Shown here one piece after another: positions 1,731 through 14,242 of a stretch of 19,084 nucleotides of DNA. The DNA is taken from positions 1 through 19,084 of the forward strand of contig JAGAPI010000288.1 in the NCBI GenBank assembly GCA_017623335.1, in the 5' to 3' direction. Source of the stretch: Prevotella sp. Lineage in GTDB: Bacteria; Bacteroidota; Bacteroidia; Bacteroidales; Bacteroidaceae. Numbering within the stretch: position 1 is the stretch's first letter; each line of letters starts with the position of its first letter. The position numbers and the translations under genes were made by a program. The notes beneath the pieces were generated by a model, which did no database searches, was not told the DNA's origin, and saw only the letters and a list, made by a program, of their open reading frames with translations.

Positions 1731-2009
1731 ATGAACAACAAGGAATTTATAAGCGAGCTTGCCGCGAGGATGGGCTTCAGCATTGCCGAGACGCAGCGCA
1801 TGGTGACGGCGGTGGTCGATGAGGCGGCGGAGCGCCTGCAGAACGGCGACACGCTCTCGGTGACGGGCTTCGGAACGTTCGACGTGAAGAAGAAGATGGA
1901 GCGCGTAATCATCAATCCTGCCACGCAGCAGCGTATGCTCGTGCCGCCGAAACTGGTATTGGATTTTAAGGCGGTGCCGCGTCTGAAAGATAAAATAAAA
2001 GGAAAATAA
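1731..2009 (+). CDS. HU-family DNA-binding protein (small)
   Basis: This 92-residue nucleoid protein binds and bends DNA as a dimer. The helical dimerisation half (NNKEFISELAARMGFS and following), the GFGTF turn at about residues 46-50 and the beta arm around INPATQQRMLVPP are all visible. The arm keeps the proline that wedges into DNA in HU/IHF proteins. I chose the ATG at 1731 because HU homology begins there; the reading frame is open from an ATG at 1674, but the extra 19 residues have no HU character. The stop codon at 2007-2009 shares a base with the next start (TAATG), so the two HU genes are probably translationally coupled. Whether this is the main HU or a specialised paralogue cannot be told from the window. 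Confidence 0.9.
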   Translation: MNNKEFISELAARMGFSIAETQRMVTAVVDEAAERLQNGDTLSVTGFGTFDVKKKMERVIINPATQQRMLVPPKLVLDFKAVPRLKDKIKGK

Positions 2010-3226
2010 TGGCAAAGATCTCGTTTTTTGAAGTGGCGCAGGTGCTTGTGGAGCACAAGGGGCTTGAGAAAGGCATCGCCAAAGAATTTGTCAAGACCAT
2101 GTTTGACATTATTCTGGAACGCCTCACCACCGACCAGCTGGTGAAGGTGAGGGGGCTTGGCACGTTTAAGGTGGTGGGCGTGGACTCGCGCGAAAGCGTC
2201 AACGTTACAACCGGCGAGCGCTTTGTGATAGAAGGACACTCAAAGATAACGTTTACTCCTGACTCCACTATGAAGGAACTTATCAACAAGCCGTTCTCGC
2301 AGTTTGAGACGGTGATGCTGAACGACGGTGTGAACTTCGCCGATAATAAGGCAGAGGAGAAAGCCGGAGAAGAACCGGCTCCCGTAGTAGAAGAGGTTCC
2401 AGCTCCCGTAATCGAAGAGGAGCCTGCTCCCGTAGTCGAAGAAGAACCAGCTCCCGTAGTCGAAGAGGAGCCTGCTCCCGTAGTCGAAGAGGAACCAGCT
2501 CCCGTAGTCGAAGAGGAACCAGCTCCCGTAGTCGAAGAGGAACCTGCTCCTGAAATCGTTGAAGAAGAGCCCGCTCCTGAAACAGTTGAGGAAGAGCCAG
2601 CTCCCGAAACAGTTGAAGAAGAGCCTGCTCCCGAAATCGTTGAGGAAGAACCTGCTCCTGTTGTGGAGGAAGAACCGGAAGAAAGCCGTTTGCCCTCGCA
2701 TTTCAAGCCCGTTCTCATACACCTTATATATATAACAGTGGTTGCGGCGCTGGCAGGGTGGGGCGGCTATTGGTATGGCAAGAACTCTGCAGAGCAGGAA
2801 GCCGCGGCAAAAGTGACGATGCCGGCAAAGCCCCGCAAGGCTGTGACGGTAAGGAAGACTGTGGCGGCAAAACCTGCGGTAAAGCCCGACACGACACGCA
2901 AGGACACCGCAAAGCCGGTGGTGCAGGAGAAACAGGATGAGGTGAAGACCGAAGCGCAGATTATTCTTGAGAACCACGAGAAATATTCGGCTATGGACTC
3001 AAGGGTGCGCACGGGAGCCTATGTGATTGTGGGCGAGCTGCGCACGGAAAAGGTAAGGAAGGGCGAGACCATGGAGCGGTTTGCCCGGCGTATGCTTGGC
3101 GAGGGTATGGAATGCTACATAGAGGTCTTTAATTCTATTCCGCCAAAAACGCCATTGAAGGAAGGGCAGGAGATAAAGATTCCAAAGCTGCGGCTGAAAA
3201 AGGCTGTGAGGAAACAGAGCAAATAA
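2009..3226 (+). CDS. Membrane-anchored HU-domain protein with acidic repeat and LysM-like domain
   Basis: The 405-residue protein has four parts. Residues 1-95 form an HU-like domain with the GLGTF turn at 49-53, but the arm reads VNVTTGERFVIEG and lacks the usual DNA-wedging proline. Residues 121-224 are twelve tandem units of the EEPAPVVE / EEPAPEIVE / EEPAPETVE type, acidic and proline-rich, hence probably extended. Residues about 235-257 form one hydrophobic segment (VLIHLIYITVVAALAGWGGY). A Lys/Ala/Pro-rich stretch (about 268-305) leads to a LysM-like fold at about 336-394, seen in VRKGETMERFARRML and LKEGQEIKIPKL. If the HU domain is cytoplasmic, LysM would sit in the periplasm and could hold peptidoglycan; this topology is inferred. 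The flanking charges do not decide orientation, since lysines are abundant after the segment. It overlaps the preceding HU stop by one base, and no other gene follows before the hairpins. Confidence 0.88.
   Translation: MAKISFFEVAQVLVEHKGLEKGIAKEFVKTMFDIILERLTTDQLVKVRGLGTFKVVGVDSRESVNVTTGERFVIEGHSKITFTPDSTMKELINKPFSQFETVMLNDGVNFADNKAEEKAGEEPAPVVEEVPAPVIEEEPAPVVEEEPAPVVEEEPAPVVEEEPAPVVEEEPAPVVEEEPAPEIVEEEPAPETVEEEPAPETVEEEPAPEIVEEEPAPVVEEEPEESRLPSHFKPVLIHLIYITVVAALAGWGGYWYGKNSAEQEAAAKVTMPAKPRKAVTVRKTVAAKPAVKPDTTRKDTAKPVVQEKQDEVKTEAQIILENHEKYSAMDSRVRTGAYVIVGELRTEKVRKGETMERFARRMLGEGMECYIEVFNSIPPKTPLKEGQEIKIPKLRLKKAVRKQSK
2369..2680 (+). repeat. In-frame 24/27-bp tandem repeat encoding EEPAP units
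   Basis: Twelve units encode E-E-x-P-A-P followed by VVE, VIE, EIVE or ETVE. The central 24-bp units (roughly 2417-2545) are nearly identical at the DNA level (core GTAGTCGAAGAGGAACC), while the later 27-bp units differ more. All unit lengths are multiples of three, so gain or loss of a unit would change linker length without breaking the frame. Near-identity of neighbouring units suggests recent expansion by slippage or unequal recombination. Confidence 0.93.
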
Positions 3227-3332: not shown

Positions 3333-3369
3333 CGTCTCCGGCACTGCTTCATGCCTGGAGCGTTTTTTT
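3333..3369 (+). terminator. Strong intrinsic terminator with T7 tail
   Basis: CG-CTCCGGCA (3333-3343, with T3335 bulged) pairs with TGCC-GGAG-CG (3352-3362, with T3356 bulged) around an 8-base loop, followed by seven T residues (3363-3369). This is a classical plus-strand terminator for the ftsY-rimO-HU block. Its T-run touches the stop codon of the convergent GH43 gene. Confidence 0.75.
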
Positions 3370-4420
3370 ACCATGGTTCCAGCGTGAGCCAGCCGTCAGA
3401 GGTCCAGTTTATGCGCTTTTTCACAAGGATTGACGCACCGTTTTTTGCCACACTGTAGCCGTGGCAGATGAACAGGTCGGCAGGAAGGTCTGTGTGGTGG
3501 TATGCGGCGCAATGCCCCATTGCCTCATATTCCTTTTTGTCGCCTTCAAGGATGATTGTTCCTCCGCCCGCGAGCATATCCTTGCCGTTGCGGTCGAGAT
3601 ACGGACCTGCCACATTCTTGCTCCTTCCCACTGCAACGCGGTAGTTGCTCTTTATGCCCCGGCAACAGTAGTCCCAGCTCACAAACAGATAGTAATAGTC
3701 GCCGTGACGCATGATGAACGGTGCCTCTATGGCGTTGGTGCCTGCATATTTCGATGTTGGGTTGGGCTCTACGTTGGTGTCACCCGGGCTGTGGCGGCGG
3801 GCTATGGTGAAAGGCTTGGCACCACGCTTCACGTGCATGCTCTTGTCGAGCTGTACCATCTGTATTCCGTCCCAAAACGAGCCCCATGTCATACACGGGC
3901 GTCCTTTCTCGTCGATAATGAAGTTAGGGTCGATGGCGTTCCAGTCGTTGCGCTTTCCCTTCGATGCCACGATGCAGCCCTCGTTCTTCCATCCGCCGGC
4001 GTTTGCCAGCGAGGTGTTGCTGAGCAGTCCTATTGCCGAGGTGTTTTTACCGAATGTAGAGCACGAGTATGCCAGATACCATTTGTTGCGGTAGCGTATT
4101 ATGTCGGGTGCCCAGATATGGTTTTCAAATCCCGGCACGCTGTCTCTGGTCCATGCCGGAATGTTGTTGCCGAGCACTCCGCTGCGGTTGATGGTCCAGC
4201 GGCTGCCGTCGGTGGAGGTCATCTGCCCTATGCCGTGCCCAGTGCAGTAGAGATAGCACACCCCGTTCTCCCATGCCATCACGGGATCGTGAACAAACGG
4301 CGTGTCAACCGTCAGTTGCTCCTTGTTGCCTTGTAGAGTAGCCTCCTGAGCCTTTGCGCAGGGAGCGGCAAAAAGCATTGCCGTCCCTATGATTATGTTG
4401 TTGATGTTCATTGCCTTCAT
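3368..4420 (-). CDS. GH43 endo-alpha-1,5-L-arabinanase (single domain, exported)
   Basis: This 350-residue GH43 enzyme resembles arabinan endo-1,5-alpha-L-arabinanases, which cut the alpha-1,5-linked backbone of arabinan. The five-bladed propeller fold shows the three family acids: D45 in VHDPV (base), D164 in NAIDPNF (pKa modulator) and E232 in IEAPFI (general acid). HIWAPDI at 101-107, WGSFWDGI at 179-186 and DYCCRGIKSNY at 250-260 are also typical of this arabinanase branch. Residues 1-25 look like a signal peptide ending CAKA|Q. The cysteine at 21 sits in AAPC, a poor lipobox, so a soluble periplasmic enzyme is more likely than a lipoprotein. The start codon overlaps the stop of the upstream GH43 by one base (TAATG), implying coupled translation as the last gene of the locus. 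Exact product pattern is unknown. Confidence 0.9.
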   Translation of the reverse strand: MKAMNINNIIIGTAMLFAAPCAKAQEATLQGNKEQLTVDTPFVHDPVMAWENGVCYLYCTGHGIGQMTSTDGSRWTINRSGVLGNNIPAWTRDSVPGFENHIWAPDIIRYRNKWYLAYSCSTFGKNTSAIGLLSNTSLANAGGWKNEGCIVASKGKRNDWNAIDPNFIIDEKGRPCMTWGSFWDGIQMVQLDKSMHVKRGAKPFTIARRHSPGDTNVEPNPTSKYAGTNAIEAPFIMRHGDYYYLFVSWDYCCRGIKSNYRVAVGRSKNVAGPYLDRNGKDMLAGGGTIILEGDKKEYEAMGHCAAYHHTDLPADLFICHGYSVAKNGASILVKKRINWTSDGWLTLEPW

Positions 4421-7083
4421 TATTTCCTTATATACTTCTTGCCGTTGATGATTACAATGCCTCGATAGCTCTTATCCACCCGCTGTCCGCTGATGTTGTA
4501 GATGGCGTCTGTATCACGATATTGTGGCTGTTCGCCGATAACTGCATTCTCAATGCCTGTGACTGTAGAGCCGTCGATGTAAGACTTCTCATTCACGAAG
4601 AATAGTTTTATCTTGCTTGGCTTAGACGCAATAGTTGTTGTGTACCCATAGTTATACACTTTCTTGCTTGTGGTGGTGATGGTAGACTCCATCTTGAATG
4701 CACCGTCGGCAGTGAGGCTTACGGTCATATCCACGAGTGAGCCGTTCATGTCGCTCTTGAATGTATCCCAATTATAGTTGCTGGTCAAACCGCTTGCATC
4801 GTAATTGTCACCCCAACCGAAGTTGTCATTGCGCAGTACGAAATATTCCTTGTAGCCTGTTGCTCCACGTTCGGCGTTTGCTGTGACGAGCCCCCAGTTG
4901 TTCCAGTTTTCAGCCATGTCGCTGTAGTTGTAGAACTGGAGTCTTATCTTCTTGCCTGCCTCAACGTCGAAGTAACTTGTCGTGAAGTTGGTCCACCATG
5001 CGGCAGTAAGGTTTTTCTGTGTAGACTCAGGATAGAATACAGGCACATAGTCCTCAGCATCTTTATCTACGGTAATCTGATATTCCCTTGTATATACGCA
5101 GTCGTCCTTGGTTATGGTGAGAGTAAGCGTCACTTTTCCGTTGTTTCTCACTCTTCCCGTGTGCGACAGTATATTGGTGTCGCTTGATTTCCACTCTACA
5201 ATTGCTCCAAGGTTGCCGGCTGTAGGCAACTGTATGTTTGAGTTGATTGTAGCACCGTCGTTTACAGGTATGCTGAGTTTGTCGAGAGTGTATTTTATTG
5301 CCGCTCTGGCATCAGCCTTCACTGCCCACAGCTCCTGTCCGTAGGTCCAGCTTTTTCCTGTCGTGCGTACTCCGCTTGATGATGACAATGCGGTGATGCA
5401 GAGTGCTGGAATGTCAGTGTAGTCAATGGTCTGACGAACGAGCACGCCACGGTAGACTGTGGTTCCTATTGTCAGTGCAATGTAGTCGGTGCCTGGTGTG
5501 CGCTCCCATTTTCCTGATACCTCCCCGCTCACTGTTCCGTCGGCATCGAGATGTATGTTCACAGGTGTCTGATACTCCTTTGCCGCCACATTCTGATAAT
5601 ATCTGTGCCGTAGCAGCTGATAGTCGCCGGCAATCTCACTGTCGTCAATTGATGCCTTTGCGGCAATGTCCTGGTCGGTTACGGTTTCACCGTCAAACTC
5701 AAACGGGGCAGCCATTATCCAGTCCTCATCGTTGAGCCACAGCTGGTGCACACGTACCTCATGTCCCTCAGTACCGTTGTTGAAACGTGTGTGATAAACC
5801 ACGAACGCGCGTCCTTTGTCATCTATAAAGGCAGAGTTGTGCCCCTGTGCAATTTCTGCCACAGGCATTGTGTCCCATTGATAGCCGCCCATGAGCAGCA
5901 CTCCGCGGTTGTCGTTGGCATTGTTGCCGTAGTTAAGAAGATATTTGTCGAAGAGTGCTGATGTGCCGTAGCAATCTTTGTATGGTCCCTCGGGATTGTC
6001 AGAGCGGAATATGCGCATCTGGTATCCACCGTTTGATTCCAGTCCGCCGTAGCTCATGAAGAGGAAGTAGTGCTTGCCAATCTTCTCTATGTAGCTTGCC
6101 TCACCGGATACGTAATATCCTCCGGCAATCTTCTTGCCGAAGTAAGGGTCGCAGGTGCAGTCCTTGGAGTAATTGCCAGAGGTGGTCTCATTGCCGTTAA
6201 TCTCATATTTGAATGTATATTGATAGTCGCGCAGACCGTTGTCTTCGTTCAGTTTCAGAATGTATATGCCTCCCGACCATGAGCCGTAGGTCATCCACAG
6301 ATTGTTGTCATCATCGTAGAACACACATGGGTCAATACAGTTTGGCCAGTAGTTACCCCAATTGTCGTTTGTGGTCACCTTATAGCGTGCAGGCAGAGCA
6401 GTCTCGCCTGTGGCTATGCTTAGGTCAGTGCGTTTCCAGTCATCGGCCTTTCCGAATCCATTATGGGCGAACTGTCCTGAGAATCCAGAGAACACTACGG
6501 GTCCCTGATAAGTCCACGGACCCTCTATGTTGTCGGCTGTAAGACATACGATGCTTGAACACCAGTTGTCGCCGTTGACGCTCATGTACATGCACCATTT
6601 CTTCATCTTTTTGTTGTATATGACATCGGGAGCCCACTGCATTCCTCTTACGGTGTTTCCTGAGAACTGCCAGCCGTGCGCATCGAAGTTACCGAAGCTC
6701 ACGTCCTCGCCCTTATAGTTCTTCACAGTTTTCACGGCGTGGCTTGAGTAGGCATTGCTGTAGTTCACAATGCCACCGCCGACATTTGCGAACATGCTAT
6801 TGTCTGTGCCTGTGTTCTCCTCGCCGGTTTTGAATGTGGTCCATTCCTGATAGTTGGCGGCTTGTGTTGTCTTGCCTCTGCCGAGGTGTGAGCCATATAT
6901 ATAATATGTTGGTGCCGACGGTGATGCGATGTTGTCAATGACAATCGACGGGTCATGGCATGACACACGCATAGAGTAGCCTCTTGAGCTGTAGGCGTTT
7001 GCCAGGTCATTGTCGCTGACAGTTGTCTGTCCTATTGCCGCTGTTGCTGTTGACAGACAGAGAAGTGTGAGAAGTTTCTTCAT
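4420..7083 (-). CDS. Large modular GH43 arabinanase with Ig-like domain, putative glycan-binding module and sorting-type tail
   Basis: This 887-residue secreted enzyme probably makes the first cuts in arabinan. Parts in order: signal peptide 1-19; GH43 propeller about 36-465 with D44 in CHDPSI, D251 in CIDPCVF, E328 in GEASYI and the buried-metal histidine H415 in QGHNSAF; a beta-rich domain about 482-590 like the C-terminal domain of extended endo-arabinanases; an Ig-like domain about 592-673; a module at 694-838 that is homologous by eye to two segments of the neighbouring lipoprotein; and a tail at 858-887 reading IYNISGQRV then GIVIINGKKYIRK. The tail resembles type A sorting signals of the type IX secretion system, which would place the enzyme outside the cell; this is inferred. 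No lipobox is present. A strong hairpin precedes the gene in the operon. Activity as an arabinanase is well supported by family; exact linkage preference is not proven. Confidence 0.9.
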   Translation of the reverse strand: MKKLLTLLCLSTATAAIGQTTVSDNDLANAYSSRGYSMRVSCHDPSIVIDNIASPSAPTYYIYGSHLGRGKTTQAANYQEWTTFKTGEENTGTDNSMFANVGGGIVNYSNAYSSHAVKTVKNYKGEDVSFGNFDAHGWQFSGNTVRGMQWAPDVIYNKKMKKWCMYMSVNGDNWCSSIVCLTADNIEGPWTYQGPVVFSGFSGQFAHNGFGKADDWKRTDLSIATGETALPARYKVTTNDNWGNYWPNCIDPCVFYDDDNNLWMTYGSWSGGIYILKLNEDNGLRDYQYTFKYEINGNETTSGNYSKDCTCDPYFGKKIAGGYYVSGEASYIEKIGKHYFLFMSYGGLESNGGYQMRIFRSDNPEGPYKDCYGTSALFDKYLLNYGNNANDNRGVLLMGGYQWDTMPVAEIAQGHNSAFIDDKGRAFVVYHTRFNNGTEGHEVRVHQLWLNDEDWIMAAPFEFDGETVTDQDIAAKASIDDSEIAGDYQLLRHRYYQNVAAKEYQTPVNIHLDADGTVSGEVSGKWERTPGTDYIALTIGTTVYRGVLVRQTIDYTDIPALCITALSSSSGVRTTGKSWTYGQELWAVKADARAAIKYTLDKLSIPVNDGATINSNIQLPTAGNLGAIVEWKSSDTNILSHTGRVRNNGKVTLTLTITKDDCVYTREYQITVDKDAEDYVPVFYPESTQKNLTAAWWTNFTTSYFDVEAGKKIRLQFYNYSDMAENWNNWGLVTANAERGATGYKEYFVLRNDNFGWGDNYDASGLTSNYNWDTFKSDMNGSLVDMTVSLTADGAFKMESTITTTSKKVYNYGYTTTIASKPSKIKLFFVNEKSYIDGSTVTGIENAVIGEQPQYRDTDAIYNISGQRVDKSYRGIVIINGKKYIRK

Positions 7084-7117
7084 TGTCGGTTCTTATTTAA
7101 AGTAGTGTTTAGTAAAT

Positions 7118-7154
7118 AAGGGAGGTATTGCCATCGAATGGGAATACCTCCCTT
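7118..7154 (-). promoter_or_regulatory. Intercistronic hairpin between the lipoprotein and GH43 genes
   Basis: AAGGGAGGTATT (7118-7129) and AATACCTCCCTT (7143-7154) form a perfect 12-bp stem. Inside it CCAT (7131-7134) pairs with ATGG (7138-7141) around a CGA loop, with one G-G mismatch between the two stems. On the coding (minus) strand the stem is followed by a weakly T-rich run (ATTTACTAAAC), so partial termination, mRNA processing or protection of the upstream susC-susD-lipoprotein message are all possible. It sits in a 106-base gap, the widest within the operon. Confidence 0.8.
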
Positions 7155-7189
7155 TTGAATTTTACATCAAAATGAGTTATCTGCGTATA

Positions 7190-8956
7190 TTACTCGAATA
7201 CCAGATGGCTGCCGTCTACTGTGAACGACACATTGAAGTCATCAGGGTCGACAGTGCTTATGCCAAGGTAGTACTGGATATAGTCTGCACCGTCGGTGCC
7301 GTGCATGATGCACTGAACGTCAGCGTGACCGTTGTTGCAGTTGGTTACGTAGAGCGTACATTTGGCTCCGTTCATTGCGGCAAGCCATGTAGCCCAGTCT
7401 GCCTGACCTCCTGAGAGCTGCAGGTTGGCATTGCCGTCGTAGCCTGCACCCCATCCGTAGTTGTCGGAACGTACTACGGCATACTCTGCAAGGTTCGCGC
7501 GACGGAGAATCACCACGTAGTTGTTCCAGTTTGCACCACCGGCATAGTTGGTGAAGTTGAACTCACGGGTCTCGCCTGCAGGTACGTTTACATCATCGAT
7601 GAATGCTGCCCACCAGCCAGTGCTGTTGTCTTCTGCACCAAGTGCAAGCGGTGAAGGAGTAATCTTTGTCGACTTAGAGGTAGCCACGGCAATTTCTGTC
7701 TCGGCAGTCTTGCCGTTAGCGGTAGATACGGTCACCACAGCGTAGCCCTGACGTGCAGGAATAGCAGAGAATGTTAGCTTCGAGTTGTCTATCACGTCGG
7801 TTGTTCCGTCCGAGTAGGTTGCTGTAACCACCATGCCTGTCGGGTCGAATGGAAGGGTGCGCTCTTCCATGCCGTCGGTAGCGGTAGAGTTGAAGTAATA
7901 GTATGTGTCGCGTGTTGGCTCCTGTGTGATGGCGATTGATGCAATCTCGTTCACCACCTTGAATGTAGCATATGCCACGATAGGAGTAGCTGCATTCTCA
8001 CCCTTGAAGGTCTTGTTGTAGATTACAATCAAGTTCTTCTCGCCTGGCTCGTCCATGTCTGGGATAGCTGAGAAATAAAGTTCAGCAGCAGGAATTACTT
8101 TGCTTACACCCTCTTCAAACTGTACAGTTGCAGAAATGTTAGCCATTGCATCATCAAGAGATGTGCCCTTAACCACTTCGTCCGGAACATTCTCCAGAGT
8201 CATTGAAATTGGGTTCTTGTCGTTGGCAGATGTATATCCTCCGATAGGCTCTACGTTTGCTGCGAGGATGTTAAGGTAAGAGCCTTCGGGCACGAGGAAT
8301 ATGCGCATGTTGGTGTTCGACTGGTCTGCATTGAGATTGGCAAGAGGAGTCTTCTGCTTATAAGTTTTCGTGACAGTACCGTTGGTCATGGTCACCGTAA
8401 AAGATGACGCATCAGAACGGTCAACGGTCAGAGTAACCTTACCGCCAAGCTTCTCAACGCCTGCGTCCGTGTCGGTTGCGAATGTGAGTGTGCTCTCCAC
8501 GCAGCTGCGGTCGATGTAGTCGCCCCACTCAGAGTTTCCGCTTGGCTGGTTGTCGAAACGGATGGCTCCGTACTCGGCATAGCCTTCTCCGCCGCGGTCC
8601 ACGTCGTTGCTGAGAATCATTGCGAAGTTCTTATATGTGTTGGTTGCATTGGGGTTGATATTCAGGTTGAACTGAAGGTGGAATTTCTTTCCGTCGGGAA
8701 TTACGTAATACTTTGAGAACTGCGCCCACCAGCCAGAGGTGAAGTCGGTGGCACCGACGGTGTAGACATCTTCCTCCATGCCTTCGAGAATTTCCTCACC
8801 CTGGTTGTTCTTGGAGTTATTGATGGAGTCAATCTTCTCTGAAATCCAGTCGGGCGAGTCCACACCGTACAGTTCTCCGCCCTCACATCCTGTAAGCATG
8901 AGCAGTCCAAGGGCAGCCGTGCACATTGCGGATGATATTTTATTTATATGTTTCAT
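7190..8956 (-). CDS. Surface glycan-binding lipoprotein (SusE/F or SGBP position)
   Basis: This 588-residue lipoprotein stands directly after susD, where Bacteroidetes glycan loci encode surface glycan-binding proteins. The signal peptide ends in the lipobox LTGC (C24). After a short Ser/Asn-rich spacer come an N-terminal module at about 70-237, two Ig-like domains at about 245-335 and 338-425, and a C-terminal module at about 443-588. The two end modules share a pattern with each other and with residues 694-838 of the large GH43: GWW or AWW at the start, NWNN and SDNYGWG / NDNFGWG in the middle, and a closing strand such as IFLVPEGSYL. No catalytic motif is visible. Role inferred: capture of arabinan at the cell surface and transfer to SusC/SusD. 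The binding function rests on position, lipidation and architecture, not on a named CBM family. Confidence 0.82.
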   Translation of the reverse strand: MKHINKISSAMCTAALGLLMLTGCEGGELYGVDSPDWISEKIDSINNSKNNQGEEILEGMEEDVYTVGATDFTSGWWAQFSKYYVIPDGKKFHLQFNLNINPNATNTYKNFAMILSNDVDRGGEGYAEYGAIRFDNQPSGNSEWGDYIDRSCVESTLTFATDTDAGVEKLGGKVTLTVDRSDASSFTVTMTNGTVTKTYKQKTPLANLNADQSNTNMRIFLVPEGSYLNILAANVEPIGGYTSANDKNPISMTLENVPDEVVKGTSLDDAMANISATVQFEEGVSKVIPAAELYFSAIPDMDEPGEKNLIVIYNKTFKGENAATPIVAYATFKVVNEIASIAITQEPTRDTYYYFNSTATDGMEERTLPFDPTGMVVTATYSDGTTDVIDNSKLTFSAIPARQGYAVVTVSTANGKTAETEIAVATSKSTKITPSPLALGAEDNSTGWWAAFIDDVNVPAGETREFNFTNYAGGANWNNYVVILRRANLAEYAVVRSDNYGWGAGYDGNANLQLSGGQADWATWLAAMNGAKCTLYVTNCNNGHADVQCIMHGTDGADYIQYYLGISTVDPDDFNVSFTVDGSHLVFE

Positions 8957-9021
8957 AATTGTCTTTTATTTTTAATTTATATTTTTAAGGAGTTAGAGGG
9001 AGTAAAAGGGAGTTTTTTCTT

Positions 9022-10776
9022 TTACTTCAAGTTAACTACCGGACGTACTTTCCAGCCGCGTGCGAAGAAGTCGGCAGAGTTGTCAGTACCGTCGTTGGCA
9101 GAGTTGCCGTTGAGGTTAGGGTTGGCGTTGAGAGTACCCTGATAGATTGGCAGGAACTCATGACCTGGCAGATAGCTGTCGTAAGATGACTTAACCATAT
9201 CGTTGTCAACCTCTGAGTAGCTTACTGGAGCCTTCGGGTCAACTGCAGGGTAGATGCCCTTGCGGAATGTTCCGTGTTCCTTGAGCTGCTGCAGTCGGTC
9301 TGCCTGATAGAAGAATCCCCAGCGTAGAAGATCGTTGCCGCGGCCATACTCGCAACCGAACTCCTTAGGACGCTCAACGTTGGCAATCTGCTCAAACAGC
9401 TTGTCGGCAGAGTTGAAGTTGGCGAGCTTAAGGTCTGGCAGCTCAGCGCGGCGGCGTACCTCGTTAATCCAGTCGATAGCCTGCTGTGTAGGACCGTTCA
9501 CCTCGTTCTCGCACTCAGCTGCACGGAGAAGAACGTCAGAATAGCGCATCAGACGGAGGTTGATACCGCAGTGCAAGCCTGTAACCACTGTACCGTAGAG
9601 ATTAGTACGCAGGTTTGTCCATTTTGCGATTGGCAGACCGCCGTTGCTGTTGTTGGTCACAACGGGAGCGTCGGGAGTCATTTCTACGGTGTAGCCTACG
9701 TTGCCGTTCTCGAAGCCTTCCCAGTCGGTCTCGTATGTACCGATGGTCCAGTAGAGGCGTGGGTCGAGCTTGCCGCTTGTGGTACGCTCTTCCTTGAACA
9801 GATTGTAGAGCCATGGTGATGCAGAGAGGTCGGCCCAACCGCCATAATTGCCCGGACAGAAGTTTGACTCGATGGCGTGTCCCTGAGTGGCATTAGGTGA
9901 GGTGTTCACTGGTGTCCACTCATCGTCAACGCCCTGGCTTCCATAGTCAAGATACTGTACCTCGAACAGACTCTCGTCGTTGTTCTCGTATGCCGGACCC
10001 TCGCGGAAGTTGTCGCCGTAGTTTGCCATCAGCTTGTATGAGCCGTACTTCTTGTTGATGATGTCCTTCAGCACGGTAAGAGCCTCGCTGAACTTGTGAC
10101 GCTGCATGAGTGCGCGGGCATAGTATCCGGCAGCTGCTCCTTTGGTTGCACGGCCCTTGGACCATTCGCCCCCCTCATCGCGTGACGGCAGTAGAGTCAT
10201 AGCCTCAGAGAAGTCAGCCTCAACCTGGTCGAGCACCTCATCGTAAGAGCTGTTTGTGCCGTAAAGACCGTCGAGTGATGAGTAACCCTCATAGTCGGTG
10301 ATGAGCGATGGGGTTTGATAATAGTTCACGAGGTTGTAGTATGCAAGACCGCGGATGAAGAGAGCCTGTCCCTTGATGCGCTGCATTCTCTGTGACAGTG
10401 AGGCATTGTCGTTGCCGCAGCGTGACGTGATGAAGTTACATACGTTGATGGTGTAGTACCAGTCGCGCCATGACCACTGACCAATCTCGTCGGTGATAGG
10501 CTCGTTGAGGTCGTCGAATGGCATATACCATACCTGTGAGGAGTTCCACACCTCATCGCCGCGGCACACGTCGATGTTGTACCCCACTCGGGCGTAGGTG
10601 CCTTCCATACGGATGTGGTTGTATGCTGCGATAACACTTTCCTCCAAATCATCGGCAGTGTTGCCGAAGGTGCTTGAAGTCTGCTGGTTGGGATTGGTCA
10701 AATCCAGTTTGCCTTCGCACGATGTGAGAGCGCAGGCACCCAGCAGGATGGCTATAGAAAAATTATATAGTTTCAT
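9022..10776 (-). CDS. SusD-family nutrient-binding lipoprotein
   Basis: This 584-residue outer-membrane lipoprotein forms the lid over the SusC channel and binds the incoming oligosaccharide. The lipobox is LTSC with C20. SusD/RagB hallmarks are present: the TPR-like helix IKGQALFIRGLAYYNLVNYY (134-153), DVLLRAAECENEV (414-426) followed by INEVRRRAELP (437-447), ERPKEFGCEYGRGNDLLRWG (468-487) and the C-terminal LPIYQGTLNANPNL (542-555). Length is normal for the family. The gene starts 36 bases after the susC stop and ends 65 bases before the glycan-binding lipoprotein, so it belongs to the same operon. Aromatic residues clustered at 77-84 and 101-108 could take part in ligand stacking, but this is a guess. 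The specific ligand cannot be read from the sequence; arabino-oligosaccharides are inferred from the GH43 neighbours. Confidence 0.95.
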   Translation of the reverse strand: MKLYNFSIAILLGACALTSCEGKLDLTNPNQQTSSTFGNTADDLEESVIAAYNHIRMEGTYARVGYNIDVCRGDEVWNSSQVWYMPFDDLNEPITDEIGQWSWRDWYYTINVCNFITSRCGNDNASLSQRMQRIKGQALFIRGLAYYNLVNYYQTPSLITDYEGYSSLDGLYGTNSSYDEVLDQVEADFSEAMTLLPSRDEGGEWSKGRATKGAAAGYYARALMQRHKFSEALTVLKDIINKKYGSYKLMANYGDNFREGPAYENNDESLFEVQYLDYGSQGVDDEWTPVNTSPNATQGHAIESNFCPGNYGGWADLSASPWLYNLFKEERTTSGKLDPRLYWTIGTYETDWEGFENGNVGYTVEMTPDAPVVTNNSNGGLPIAKWTNLRTNLYGTVVTGLHCGINLRLMRYSDVLLRAAECENEVNGPTQQAIDWINEVRRRAELPDLKLANFNSADKLFEQIANVERPKEFGCEYGRGNDLLRWGFFYQADRLQQLKEHGTFRKGIYPAVDPKAPVSYSEVDNDMVKSSYDSYLPGHEFLPIYQGTLNANPNLNGNSANDGTDNSADFFARGWKVRPVVNLK

Positions 10777-10812: not shown

Positions 10813-13800
10813 TTAGAATGTGAAGTGCAGACCAGCCATGAAGCTGCGTGCGCTTGGGAACGAGCAGAAGTTGTAGCCCGGAGTGAATGTACCGCCGGCG
10901 TAGTCCACGTTGTAGCCCTTATAGCCTGTGAAGGTATAGAGGTTTTGTGCAGAGACATAGAGGCGTACTCCGTTTACTATGCCGCCAAACCACTTATCGG
11001 GGAAGTTGTAGCCAAGTTCAACGTTGGCTATCTTCCAATATGCAGCGTTCTGTATCTTGCGGTCGCTGAACAGGTCGTTCCATGCCAGTGTGGCGTTGTT
11101 GGTAGCGTATGTGCGCGGAACGTTCGACAGATAAGTTGTTCCGTCCTCCGACCAGCGGTTGGCATCGCTCATTGCCACGTCCTTGTTCCACCAGCCGTAG
11201 CATGAGTTGAGGCTGTTGTAGATATCGTCTGACACGTGATAGTTGAGCGCGCCGTATGTTGCGATGCTCATGTCGAAGTGCTTGTACTCGAAGTGTGCGC
11301 TTAAGCCGAAGTTGATCTTTGGCAGACCGCTGCCAAGGATTGTCTGGTCGTTGGCGTCGATAGCGCCATCGTTGTTGATATCCTTATAGAGACAGTCACC
11401 TACGTTTGCTCCTGGCTGTGAAATCACATCGCCATTGTCGTTTACATGATTATCAAGGTCTGCCTGTGTGCGGGCGATTCCCTCATATACCCATCCGTAG
11501 AACTTACCTATTTCCTGACCCACCTCGGTCTTGTAGGCACCAGTGATGTAAGAGTCTGTGCCGAAACCAAGAGATGTGACCTTGTTCTTCAGTGTGCTGA
11601 GGTTGGCACTTACCTGATACTTGAATGGGTGGTCGTTGTTACGGTAGGTTGCTGAGAACTCGAAACCGCTGTTCTCCATCGATGCGGCGTTCATTGTCAC
11701 TGTAGCGTTTGAAACACCTGCCTGTGCTGGTACTGGAACGGCATAAAGCAGGTCCTCAGATACATTTTTGTACCACTCAGCTGTGAACTCCAAACGGTTG
11801 TGGAACATGGCGAGGTCGATACCTACGTTGGTAGTCTTTTTCTTCTCCCATGCAAGGTTGTTGTCGGTAAAGGTTGAGATGGCAGAACCTGTCACAGGAC
11901 TGTTTCCGAAACTGTAGGTCATGTTGTTGCGGCTCATTGTAGTCTGGTACATATACTCGCCGATGTTTTCATTACCGAGCACACCGTAGCTGCCGCGAAT
12001 CTTCAACAGATTGATAACGTCCTTGCTTACAGGGAAGAATTTCTCACGGTCGAGGCGCCAACCTACTGATATTGATGGGAATGTACCCCAGCGGATGTTC
12101 TTCGACAGGCGTGAGCTGCCGTCACGGCGGATAACTGCAGAGAGCAGGTACTTGTCGTCGTAATTGTAGTTGAGACGGCCGATGTAAGATGCAATCGCAT
12201 GCTTGTACTCGTAGGAAGAAGAGTAGGTGTTGGCTGCGTTCTGCAATTGGAGGAAGTATGGTTCAGGGAACTGAATGCCCCAGCCGGTAAGCTCGTCGGT
12301 GCTCTCTTCCTCGTAAGTCTGACCAACCACGAGGTTGATGTGATGCTTGCCGATGGTGCCGTCGTATGTGAGGGTATTCTCAATCAGAGCGTCAGTATAG
12401 TCGCGTGAGCCTTTTGTCAGGCGCTCGTTGCTCTTGTCGAGATATACACGGTTGCTCTGGATCCATGCGCCGAGCCATGTGAAGTCCTTGCAGTGTGTCT
12501 TGCTGTACGACAGGTTGAGGTTGTAGTGCAGAGAGTGGTTCTTGCTCTTGATTCCAACCATGTTGAACAGGTCTATGTCTGCAGATGCAGTACCTACGAA
12601 GCGGTCAACAAGTGTGTTGCGCTTCATCATATTGTTGACAAGCAGCGGGTTTGATGCAGAGATGTCACCGTGGATAGTGTCATAGTAAACACCGTAGCCG
12701 TAAGCGTCGTAATGGTAGTTGCCGGCGGCACCAACCTTGTCGTCAAGCACCCATGTCGACTCATCGTATGCCTTGATGGTGGGCTGCATGAGCAATGTGC
12801 CGCGGAGCACGTTGGTAACGTCGCCGTAAAGTCCCTGCACATACTCTGAAGCATTAGACAGAGCCATGTTGTCCTGATTTGAGTGAGAGTACACGAGACT
12901 TGTGCGGAACTTCACAAACTTGGTGTCCATTGTGTTGTTCACACGTGCTGTATAACGCTCGTAGTTAGGACCGGCACCCTCGATGGTACCCTTCTGGTTG
13001 AAGTAATCGAGACCTATATTATATGTACTGTTGGCACTTCCGCCGCTGAGGTTTACGTTGTGGTTCTGGCGTGTTCCTGTCTTGAACACTTCCTTAAACC
13101 AGTCGGTGTTGGTGCCGTCCATAAACTGGTATTTGCCTGTTTCGGAGTTGAGCTTATATCCTCCGGGCAGGGTGGTGCCTGAGTTGGCGCATGCCTGACC
13201 GATGTAGTTGCTGTACTGGTCGGCATTCATTAGGTCGTAAACATCGCTTGAGATGTTATCTACACCGAAGTAGCCTGAGTAGTCCACCTTCAGAGGCTGG
13301 TCCTTCTTTCCGTTCTTGGTGGTGATGATAATCACACCGTTTGCGGCGCGCGAACCGTAGATGGCGCCTGCTGCGGCATCCTTCAGCACCTGGATTGTCT
13401 CAATGTCGTTTGGTGAGAAATCGCGGATGGTTGTACCCATAGGCACACCGTCGATGACATAAAGAGGAGCAGTGCTTCCGAAAGAGCCGATACCGCGGAT
13501 GCGCACAGACGGGTCGGCGCCGGGCTGGCCGTCGCTGGTAATCTGCACACCTGGCACTTTACCTTCAAGCATGGTGGAGATGTTGCTGTTTGACACCTTT
13601 TTCATCTCCTCTGCATCAACTATAGACACTGAGCCGGTAAGGTCGGCTTTCTTCTGGGTACCATAGCCCACTACGACAACCTGTTCGAGAAGCTGGTCAT
13701 CGGAAGAAAGCTGTATTTGCGGGATTATGGCTCGTCCGCGCACTGCTATCTCGCGTTCCTTGAATCCAAGATAGCTCACCACGAGTGTGGCGTTGGCTTG

Positions 13801-14025
13801 AACTTTGAGTGTGAAGTTACCGTCAAGGTCGGTTACGGTACCGCTCTTGGAATTTTTTGTCTTCACGGTTGCTCCGACAAGTGGGTCACCTTGGGCATCA
13901 ACAACTTGTCCCTTCACCGTGATGGTCTGGTCCTGAAGCACTGAGGCTTTTACAGGAATGGGGCTGATTTTGGCAGCGCCGACTGTGCCCAGACACAGCA
14001 TCATAAAGAATAATTGTTTCCTCAT
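10813..14025 (-). CDS. SusC/RagA-family TonB-dependent transporter
   Basis: This 1070-residue outer-membrane channel imports oligosaccharides using TonB energy. After a signal peptide of about 28 residues comes a carboxypeptidase-regulatory-like domain (about 36-107; VKGQVVDAQGDPLVGATV and GTVTDLDGNFTL), then the TonB box region LEQVVVVGYGTQKKADLTGS (113-132), the plug with MLEGKVPGVQI, RIRGIGS and PLYVIDGVPMG, and a long beta-barrel ending in an aromatic residue (GLHFTF), as outer-membrane insertion requires. The protein has no N-terminal STN domain, so signalling through an anti-sigma factor is not expected; control should come from the regulator encoded just upstream. It is the first gene of the locus, with operator-like repeats and a TAATTTTG box in front. 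Substrate is inferred from neighbours. Confidence 0.96.
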   Translation of the reverse strand: MRKQLFFMMLCLGTVGAAKISPIPVKASVLQDQTITVKGQVVDAQGDPLVGATVKTKNSKSGTVTDLDGNFTLKVQANATLVVSYLGFKEREIAVRGRAIIPQIQLSSDDQLLEQVVVVGYGTQKKADLTGSVSIVDAEEMKKVSNSNISTMLEGKVPGVQITSDGQPGADPSVRIRGIGSFGSTAPLYVIDGVPMGTTIRDFSPNDIETIQVLKDAAAGAIYGSRAANGVIIITTKNGKKDQPLKVDYSGYFGVDNISSDVYDLMNADQYSNYIGQACANSGTTLPGGYKLNSETGKYQFMDGTNTDWFKEVFKTGTRQNHNVNLSGGSANSTYNIGLDYFNQKGTIEGAGPNYERYTARVNNTMDTKFVKFRTSLVYSHSNQDNMALSNASEYVQGLYGDVTNVLRGTLLMQPTIKAYDESTWVLDDKVGAAGNYHYDAYGYGVYYDTIHGDISASNPLLVNNMMKRNTLVDRFVGTASADIDLFNMVGIKSKNHSLHYNLNLSYSKTHCKDFTWLGAWIQSNRVYLDKSNERLTKGSRDYTDALIENTLTYDGTIGKHHINLVVGQTYEEESTDELTGWGIQFPEPYFLQLQNAANTYSSSYEYKHAIASYIGRLNYNYDDKYLLSAVIRRDGSSRLSKNIRWGTFPSISVGWRLDREKFFPVSKDVINLLKIRGSYGVLGNENIGEYMYQTTMSRNNMTYSFGNSPVTGSAISTFTDNNLAWEKKKTTNVGIDLAMFHNRLEFTAEWYKNVSEDLLYAVPVPAQAGVSNATVTMNAASMENSGFEFSATYRNNDHPFKYQVSANLSTLKNKVTSLGFGTDSYITGAYKTEVGQEIGKFYGWVYEGIARTQADLDNHVNDNGDVISQPGANVGDCLYKDINNDGAIDANDQTILGSGLPKINFGLSAHFEYKHFDMSIATYGALNYHVSDDIYNSLNSCYGWWNKDVAMSDANRWSEDGTTYLSNVPRTYATNNATLAWNDLFSDRKIQNAAYWKIANVELGYNFPDKWFGGIVNGVRLYVSAQNLYTFTGYKGYNVDYAGGTFTPGYNFCSFPSARSFMAGLHFTF

Positions 14026-14120
14026 TTTTAGATTTATATTAATTGTTTAGTTAAAGATGTACGCCGGTTTTTACTTTTATTAAGTATGTTTGTACTTTTG
14101 GTTTAATTTTGTTTTCGTGG

Positions 14121-14128
14121 CAAAATTA
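14121..14128 (-). promoter_or_regulatory. Predicted -7 box of the susC promoter
   Basis: On the minus strand these bases read TAATTTTG, a match to the Bacteroidetes consensus TAnnTTTG. No TTG-type -33 box is found 18-21 bases upstream; a conserved repeat lies there instead, as expected of a promoter that needs an activator. The predicted start is near 14114, giving a leader of about 89 bases. Confidence 0.55.
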
Positions 14129-14148: not shown

Positions 14149-14213
14149 GGTGGATAAACGAAAAATTAAGGTGGACAAACAGTTTGAATGGCGTTATTTT
14201 GCTGTTTATCCAC
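14149..14213 (-). promoter_or_regulatory. Putative AraC-type operator: three GTGGAYAAAC repeats
   Basis: GGTGGATAAAC (14149-14159) and GGTGGACAAAC (14170-14180) are direct repeats with a period of exactly 21 bp, two helical turns. A third copy is inverted: GTTTATCCAC at 14204-14213. The proximal copy lies about 35-45 bases before the predicted susC start, where it would take the place of a -33 box. A 21-bp period of direct half-sites is the arrangement known for AraC at araI. The regulator encoded next door ends in an AraC-type domain, so it is the natural binder. The repeats are seen directly; binding is inferred. Confidence 0.65.
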
Positions 14214-14214
14214 G

Positions 14215-14242
14215 CTGTTGTGCCCCTTGTGTGGGCACACAG
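14215..14242 (-). terminator. Hairpin just after the regulator gene, without T tail
   Basis: CTG-TGTGCCC (14215-14225, with T14218 bulged) pairs with GGGCACACAG (14233-14242) around a 7-base loop. It begins ten bases after the regulator stop codon. No T-run follows on the minus strand (GCGTGGATAAAC comes next), so it may be a weak terminator or an mRNA 3'-end protector. It abuts the distal operator copy. Confidence 0.4.

Follow-up and report, generated by a model that had tools for sequence, protein, structure and literature searches.

A conserved 21-bp tandem upstream of susC as the probable operator of a kinase-less propeller-AraC regulator in Prevotella

At araI1-I2 of E. coli, the direct half-sites of AraC are spaced by about 21 bp, with the proximal half-site at the -35 region, and further half-sites serve its two-state switch. 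In Bacteroidota, the closest described systems are the hybrid two-component systems (HTCSs), of which 'most' carry all phosphorelay domains (Martens et al. 2011, PMC3243724; this and the other papers are cited from the excerpts available). Ravcheev et al. (2013, PMC3878776) predicted the operators of Bacteroides HTCSs as direct repeats averaging 21 bp, and described BT0366 (HTCS_Ara-1 of the B. thetaiotaomicron arabinan locus) as sensing oligoarabinan. Membrane HTCSs indeed bind DNA at the PULs they control: a BT1754/BT0366 chimera with the regulatory domains of BT0366 bound at the BT0366 PUL in ChIP-seq (PMC3404733), and BT4124/BT4663 promoter fragments with predicted sites were used in EMSA (PMC11253607). 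The transmembrane transcription regulators (TTRs) form a related class, and Bacteroides HTCSs are counted there as hybrid TTRs (PMC10269533). The original prediction for the locus described here held that operators of propeller regulators are seldom defined. For HTCSs this needs correcting, given the predicted sites, ChIP-seq and binding-assay fragments above.

We analysed a 19,084-nucleotide stretch of Prevotella sp. DNA (the window), in which a regulator gene lies upstream of a susC-led operon, both on the minus strand (Table 1). The word GTGGAYAAAC has only three exact matches in the window, all within 64 bp and between the regulator stop (14252) and the susC start (14025): GTGGATAAAC at 14150-14159 (plus strand), GTGGACAAAC at 14171-14180 (plus strand) and GTGGATAAAC at 14213-14204 (minus strand). 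Dinucleotide shuffling gave a mean of 0.06 matches per window and none of 200 shuffles got to three, which bears out the predicted three-copy word with its 21-bp direct spacing. The direct pair lengthens to GGTGGAYAAAC, at 14149 and 14170, 21 bp from start to start. A direct repeat matching at 10 of 11 positions and at exactly this distance is expected about 0.3 times among 52 shuffled gaps. Since many other spacings could equally have been noticed, the pair in the window is by itself only suggestive, and the proof comes from its relatives.

Table 1. Features of the regulator-susC locus, in positions of the window
Feature	Position	Strand	Sequence, basis or remark
Regulator, 993 aa	14252..17233	-	Reg_prop, Y_Y_Y, probable membrane helix, linker with receiver remnant, AraC-type HTH
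Inverted third half-site	14204..14213	-	GTGGATAAAC on the minus strand; offset 35 from distal core
Distal direct half-site	14170..14180	-	GTTTGTCCACC on the minus strand; 21 bp upstream of the proximal half-site
Proximal direct half-site	14149..14159	-	GTTTATCCACC on the minus strand; occupies the place of the -33 box
-7 box of susC promoter	14121..14128	-	TAATTTTG; TAnnTTTG form
Approximate susC transcript start	14114	-	Inferred from -7 box position
susC homologue (TonB-dependent transporter), first operon gene	10813..14025	-	Pfam, TIGR04056
susD homologue	9022..10776	-	Pfam
Probable surface glycan-binding protein	7190..8956	-	After susD; sub-threshold Big_3; 44% identical to S. copri positional counterpart
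GH43 enzyme, probable endo-arabinanase	4420..7083	-	Pfam GH43 and GH43_C; NCBIfam AbnB 248 bits (cut-off 750)
GH43 enzyme, probable arabinanase	3368..4420	-	Pfam GH43; NCBIfam AbnA 257 bits (cut-off 480)

The window protein was aligned with 22 homologues, and the alignment was used to draw the best 80 genome loci, mostly from Prevotella and Segatella, with regulators 34-58% identical to that of the window. In 52 of these 81 sequences (the best 80 loci and the window) the next large frame is on the same strand, lies 80-900 bp away and is susC-sized (900 aa or more, or continuing past the end of the locus). An 11-mer direct repeat of period 21 with at least 9 of 11 matches is present in 49 of the 52 regulator-susC gaps, where 1.9 are expected, and at 10 of 11 in 45 gaps against 0.3 expected; the runner-up periods were 22 and 23 (10 of 52 gaps). 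The repeats are thus kept upstream of orthologous susC genes, which was the check proposed with the original prediction. The half-site consensus in the relatives is CGTTTTGTCCACCT. The window departs from its relatives in having A in two of its three copies where they mostly have G, and its third copy is without the second C of CCACC, which counts against the reading proposed below. A tandem with up to three mismatches over both cores was found in 51 of the 52 gaps; the sole gap without one belongs to a complete HTCS (L072), which has the operator on its other flank. The remaining 29 sequences were treated separately. Among them, 19 have the tandem (at most three mismatches) and a -7 box at +51/52 from the distal core start, and one (L071) has a degenerate tandem with three mismatches and no -7 box; in nine the tandem is absent within the locus stretch examined. 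Both L071 and these nine loci count against the proposed reading. A direct repeat about 21 bp apart before susC is the geometry known for HTCS operators (Ravcheev et al. 2013), so that the operator belongs to a known form.

Whole-genome scans of relatives gave the same spacing. Two copies of TTTGTCCACC with 0-30 bp between them matched 10 times in 9 of 12 genomes, hand-picked from the regulator loci, every time at 21 bp. When the variable base was written as R and the spacing left free, 21 of 301 genomes yielded 23 matches in total, 20 of them at exactly 21 bp; the reversed-pattern control yielded six, all from a single genome. With the spacing fixed at 21 bp and one mismatch allowed, we found 82 matches in 78 of 299 genomes, against two, from a single genome, for the reversed control. 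After removal of 29 duplicates and three sites with other spacing, the pattern scans left 74 new non-redundant sites. In the great majority of these (66) a homologue of the window regulator, susC, glycan-binding or GH43 protein lies within about 1.5 kb; a -7 box at +51/52 accompanies 64 of the 66. At the other eight (L138, L141, L142, L145, L151, L174, L099 and L109) no PUL homologue was found within about 1.5 kb, which counts against the proposed reading; only L142 among them has a -7 box at the right distance. Conservation in the gaps, in the free-spacing scan and at the pattern-scan sites rules out a chance origin of the repeat. Many random genomic copies would have spoken against the original prediction, and the relatives have about one tandem per genome where it is present. 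Two S. copri genomes contain 8 and 14 Y_Y_Y matches, yet one exact tandem each, indicating that the word is not common to all propeller regulators.

The Bacteroidota promoter consensus consists of a -33 element, TTTG, and a -7 element, TAnnTTTG (Ryan et al. 2020, PMC7366714). In the window, TAATTTTG on the minus strand (14128-14121) lies 30 bp past the start of the proximal core TTTATCCACC, and TTTG is absent 19-23 bp upstream of it (sequence read by eye), so the predicted promoter, with a -7 box, no -33 box and the proximal copy at the -33 position, stands. The distance is fixed in relatives: in all 51 first-set tandem loci (drawn from the best 80 loci and the window) TAnnTTTG begins 51 bp (46 loci) or 52 bp (5 loci) after the start of the distal core, that is, 30-31 bp after that of the proximal core. 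At 11,444 other positions in the 117 pooled loci, covering 60 to 13 bp before and 60-109 bp after the start of the distal core, it did not occur once. TTTG 19-20 bp upstream of the -7 box was found in just 6 of 115 box-bearing loci, and the proximal half-site therefore stands at the place of the -33 element. In 51 of 51 first-set loci it is thus in the -33/-35 region, as for an AraC-like activator. A scan for sigma-70-type promoters was uninformative (2 matches, 1.2 expected). On this sequence evidence we consider it very likely that the tandem at 14149-14180 serves as the operator through which the susC-led, probably arabinan-responsive operon is activated, with the AraC-type domain of the upstream regulator as the binder.

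Other elements were noted around the tandem. The susC leader contains a second 21-bp direct repeat, GTTTTTACTTTT at 14067-14078 and GTTTGTACTTTT at 14088-14099, downstream of the inferred start; none was seen by eye in three S. copri leaders, and it was set aside. Directly after the regulator gene, at 14215-14242, is a G+C-rich inverted repeat read by eye (GTGCCCACACAAGGGGCAC on the minus strand) with no T run, and a similar stretch precedes the inverted half-site in S. copri relatives. Rfam at gathering scores had zero matches in the whole window.

The third copy was analysed with a matrix built from the direct sites and a cut-off of 6. An inverted half-site scoring at least 6 is present upstream in 23 of the 51 first-set loci, where 60 shuffles averaged 1.5 with a maximum of 4, and in 24 of the 66 new loci that have PUL context, where 40 shuffles averaged 1.4 with a maximum of 5. 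In the 117 pooled loci, where, as in the clustered counts, a relaxed cut-off of 5 was applied to the window only, a third site is inverted in 50 and forward-oriented in 3. The offsets of the inverted sites cluster at 15-17, 26-27, 35-37, 46-47 and 56-61, with off-phase exceptions at 10, 39, 68, 76 and 82. When one offset was taken per cluster of loci, the best period was 10.75 for 17 clusters (scan 6-16; Rayleigh p at 10.5 about 4e-4) and 11.0 for 22 clusters (p about 2e-4); the clusters, made by ungapped similarity of upstream sequences, vary in number with the identity cut-off and may be partly dependent, the largest of the 17 containing 30 of the 50 loci. Gapped single-linkage clustering of the upstream regions placed 48 of the 50 loci in one cluster, and was replaced as useless. 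Lying on a preferred face of the helix, the inverted half-site probably makes an additional contact. A phased third site would be compatible with a second contact on one face of the DNA, with bridging by a resting dimer or with a second dimer, and its recurrence in relatives fits the looping suggested in the original prediction.

We also noted, in 40 of the 117 loci, a Crp/FNR-like palindrome, TTGA-N6-TCAA, no more than 130 bp upstream of the distal core; mononucleotide shuffles give 0.3. Its offset is 51 in 23 loci and 74 in 13, and it lies immediately upstream of the inverted half-site (for example in L015, L016, L026 and L049). None was seen in the window.

In the window itself the inverted copy may be a chance look-alike, with the tandem alone functional, which we regard as a serious possibility though short of even. 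Its score of 5.5 is under the cut-off of 6 with both matrices and is reached by 30 of 1,000 shuffles, and a scoring inverted site is missing in 28 of 51 and 42 of 66 relatives. On the other hand, the copy is an exact duplicate of the window's proximal word and its offset, 35, is the commonest among the relatives, where inverted sites are far over chance in two sets of loci, are helically phased and greatly outnumber forward third sites. A different challenge concerns the protein. The tandem could be bound by another regulator sharing the promoter (an AraR/NrtR-type arabinose repressor, a Crp-type protein or another HTCS), with the adjacency of the regulator gene incidental. Such sharing has a precedent in B. 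thetaiotaomicron, where AraR and an HTCS are reported to control arabinan PULs jointly (PMC3878776 and PMC4666351, in the excerpts available), and the Crp-like palindromes are upstream in 40 of 117 relatives. The word, however, accompanies this regulator family whether or not the kinase is present, HTCS sites are predicted to be 21-bp direct repeats, and the S. copri genomes with their 8 and 14 Y_Y_Y matches have one exact tandem each; another regulator thus appears improbable as the binder. It is scarcely credible that the copies are DnaA boxes. The DnaA box is TTATCCACA, and TTATCCAC, contained in two of the three window copies, resembles it, but the family consensus TTTTGTCCACC, on which this identity was rejected, has G for the A of the box, and C last, in about 95% of half-sites. 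Moreover, we know of no DnaA boxes arranged as tandems spaced strictly by 21 bp, with a constant distance to a -7 box ahead of susC.

The preferred reading places the AraC-type domain of the neighbouring regulator on the operator. In that protein Pfam identifies HTH_18 and HTH_AraC at the C-terminus, in addition to Reg_prop and Y_Y_Y above cut-off, and its sensor matches solved HTCS sensors, for example 4a2l. The Pfam scan detected no HisKA, HATPase_c or Response_reg in the regulator, and the kinase is also missing in the alignment with complete HTCSs. Of the parts of an HTCS the protein has the propeller with Y_Y_Y and the AraC-type HTH, and neither the kinase nor the receiver. The AraC-type C-terminus assigned to it earlier was confirmed. 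The regulator is not a complete HTCS but a one-component protein lacking the kinase. Its AlphaFold model (mean pLDDT 81.6) has a long helix at 802-845, the putative membrane helix, for which a hydrophobic stretch was read by eye. The helix at 849-884 is largely of low confidence, as is the linker, and the HTH is confident.

Kinase-bearing relatives carry the same site. L063, L067 and L072 (about 1400 aa) have all of the kinase and receiver domains, and L062, L066, L070, L075 and L080 align with them right through the kinase and receiver. These eight loci have the same tandem and -7 box on one or both flanks; the ninth long regulator is that of L071, with its degenerate tandem and no box. L063 comes from Bacteroides heparinolyticus; of its two tandems, one is oriented towards a GH43 gene, which scores 911 bits with the BT0367 equivalog model (cut-off 800). 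The same site is thus kept by relatives whether the sensor retains or has lost its phosphate-relay parts.

We built a tree of 37 regulators by a quick method, with linker and kinase columns removed. It included 22 selected from the 61 Prevotella-type kinase-less proteins, the whole of a second kinase-less group (6) and every kinase-bearing protein (9). Each group falls on one side of a starred branch, and the tree, being unrooted, leaves one and two losses unseparated. The linkers contain remnants of the relay. That of the Prevotella group resembles the C-terminal end of the receiver (score 40.6, E 3.7e-6, where the best among 50 column shuffles scored 18.6) and, more weakly, the stretch just past the H-box of the kinase (score 26.1, E 0.0015); that of the second kinase-less group resembles the coiled coil before HisKA (E 3.8e-15). 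The differing remnants suggest that the two kinase-less groups may have arisen by separate excisions. We infer that the direction of change was towards loss: the window regulator most likely derived from an HTCS by losing the kinase and most of the receiver, with the HTH and the operator retained.

The operon is probably directed at arabinan, judging from its gene content, and the ligand of the regulator would be of the same origin. For both GH43 enzymes the best NCBIfam models are arabinan endo-arabinosidases, each scoring below its cut-off, which counts against arabinan. The S. copri locus L187 has the same gene order, with identities of 58% for the regulator, 82% for susC, 80% for susD, 44% for the glycan-binding protein and 71% for GH43b. 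Synteny is incomplete, as GH43a of the window had no match in L187 at E 1e-15, and this likewise counts against arabinan. A different GH43-like stretch lies in L187 at 8160-8894 (within about 6635-9708). In S. copri DSM18205 a PUL of similar make-up was induced by arabinan, its GH43_5 gene not being induced (PMC11784079, in the excerpt available), which again counts against arabinan; this PUL is probably the same locus as that in L187. Further along in the window, adjoining genes at 1674-2009 and 2009-3226 resemble, by eye, HU/IHF-type DNA-binding proteins, the second having an extended series of almost identical EEEPAPVV repeats as well as a predicted LysM-like tail.

Compared with the known systems, the window is most like the HTCS_Ara-1/BT0366 operators (PMC3878776) in its direct repeat of about 21 bp before susC/susD, the AraC-type HTH and the arabinan locus, a likeness of geometry and context. 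The B. heparinolyticus HTCS gene, flanked by the same tandem and beside a BT0367-equivalog gene, gives indirect support for a shared motif as well. In contrast to HTCS_Ara-1 as described there, the cognate regulator in the window has no kinase or receiver, and a phased inverted third half-site recurs. BT0366/BT1754 and BT4124/BT4663 are complete HTCSs; the operator sequence, the phased third site and a kinase-less form were not found in the available text of the two papers (PMC3404733, PMC11253607). TTRs have the sensor, membrane helix and DNA-binding domain in one chain, with no kinase, an arrangement that the window regulator, with its putative membrane helix, may share; propeller-AraC examples were not found named in the excerpt (PMC10269533). 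The window regulator suggests that there may be an excision route from an HTCS to a simple TTR. Unlike E. coli AraC, it would act from a membrane-tethered propeller sensor at a Bacteroidota -7/-33 promoter, and the further half-site is inverted rather than direct. Neither an operator kept across phosphorelay loss nor a helically phased inverted half-site was found in print among open-licence PMC papers.

We propose that a periplasmic oligosaccharide would bind the propeller sensor and alter the membrane-spanning dimer, with no phosphorelay involved. The two DNA-binding domains of the dimer would then occupy the tandem half-sites, 21 bp or two helical turns apart, and the proximal domain, over the place of the missing -33 box, would recruit RNA polymerase to the -7 box, in parallel with AraC, which recruits RNA polymerase from its I1-I2 sites. 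A wider reading, tentative and on balance doubtful, is that an arabinan-type HTCS became a one-component transmembrane activator at least twice, the phosphorelay being cut at different places while the operator sequence, the 21-bp spacing and the -7 distance stayed fixed; phosphorylation would in that case be dispensable for switches of this class. The phased inverted half-site would then make the system a membrane-tethered, AraC-like two-state switch, in which a resting dimer bridges the inverted and distal half-sites and the sugar shifts it onto the tandem.

Kinase-less propeller-AraC regulators form a large family in Prevotella and Segatella, and the tandem is a defined and conserved candidate for their operator; the helical phasing of the inverted half-site is testable by spacer insertions. 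As complete HTCSs share this operator, regulators with and without the kinase can be set side by side on one promoter, and such a comparison bears on whether the phosphorelay is required for the response or merely tunes it.
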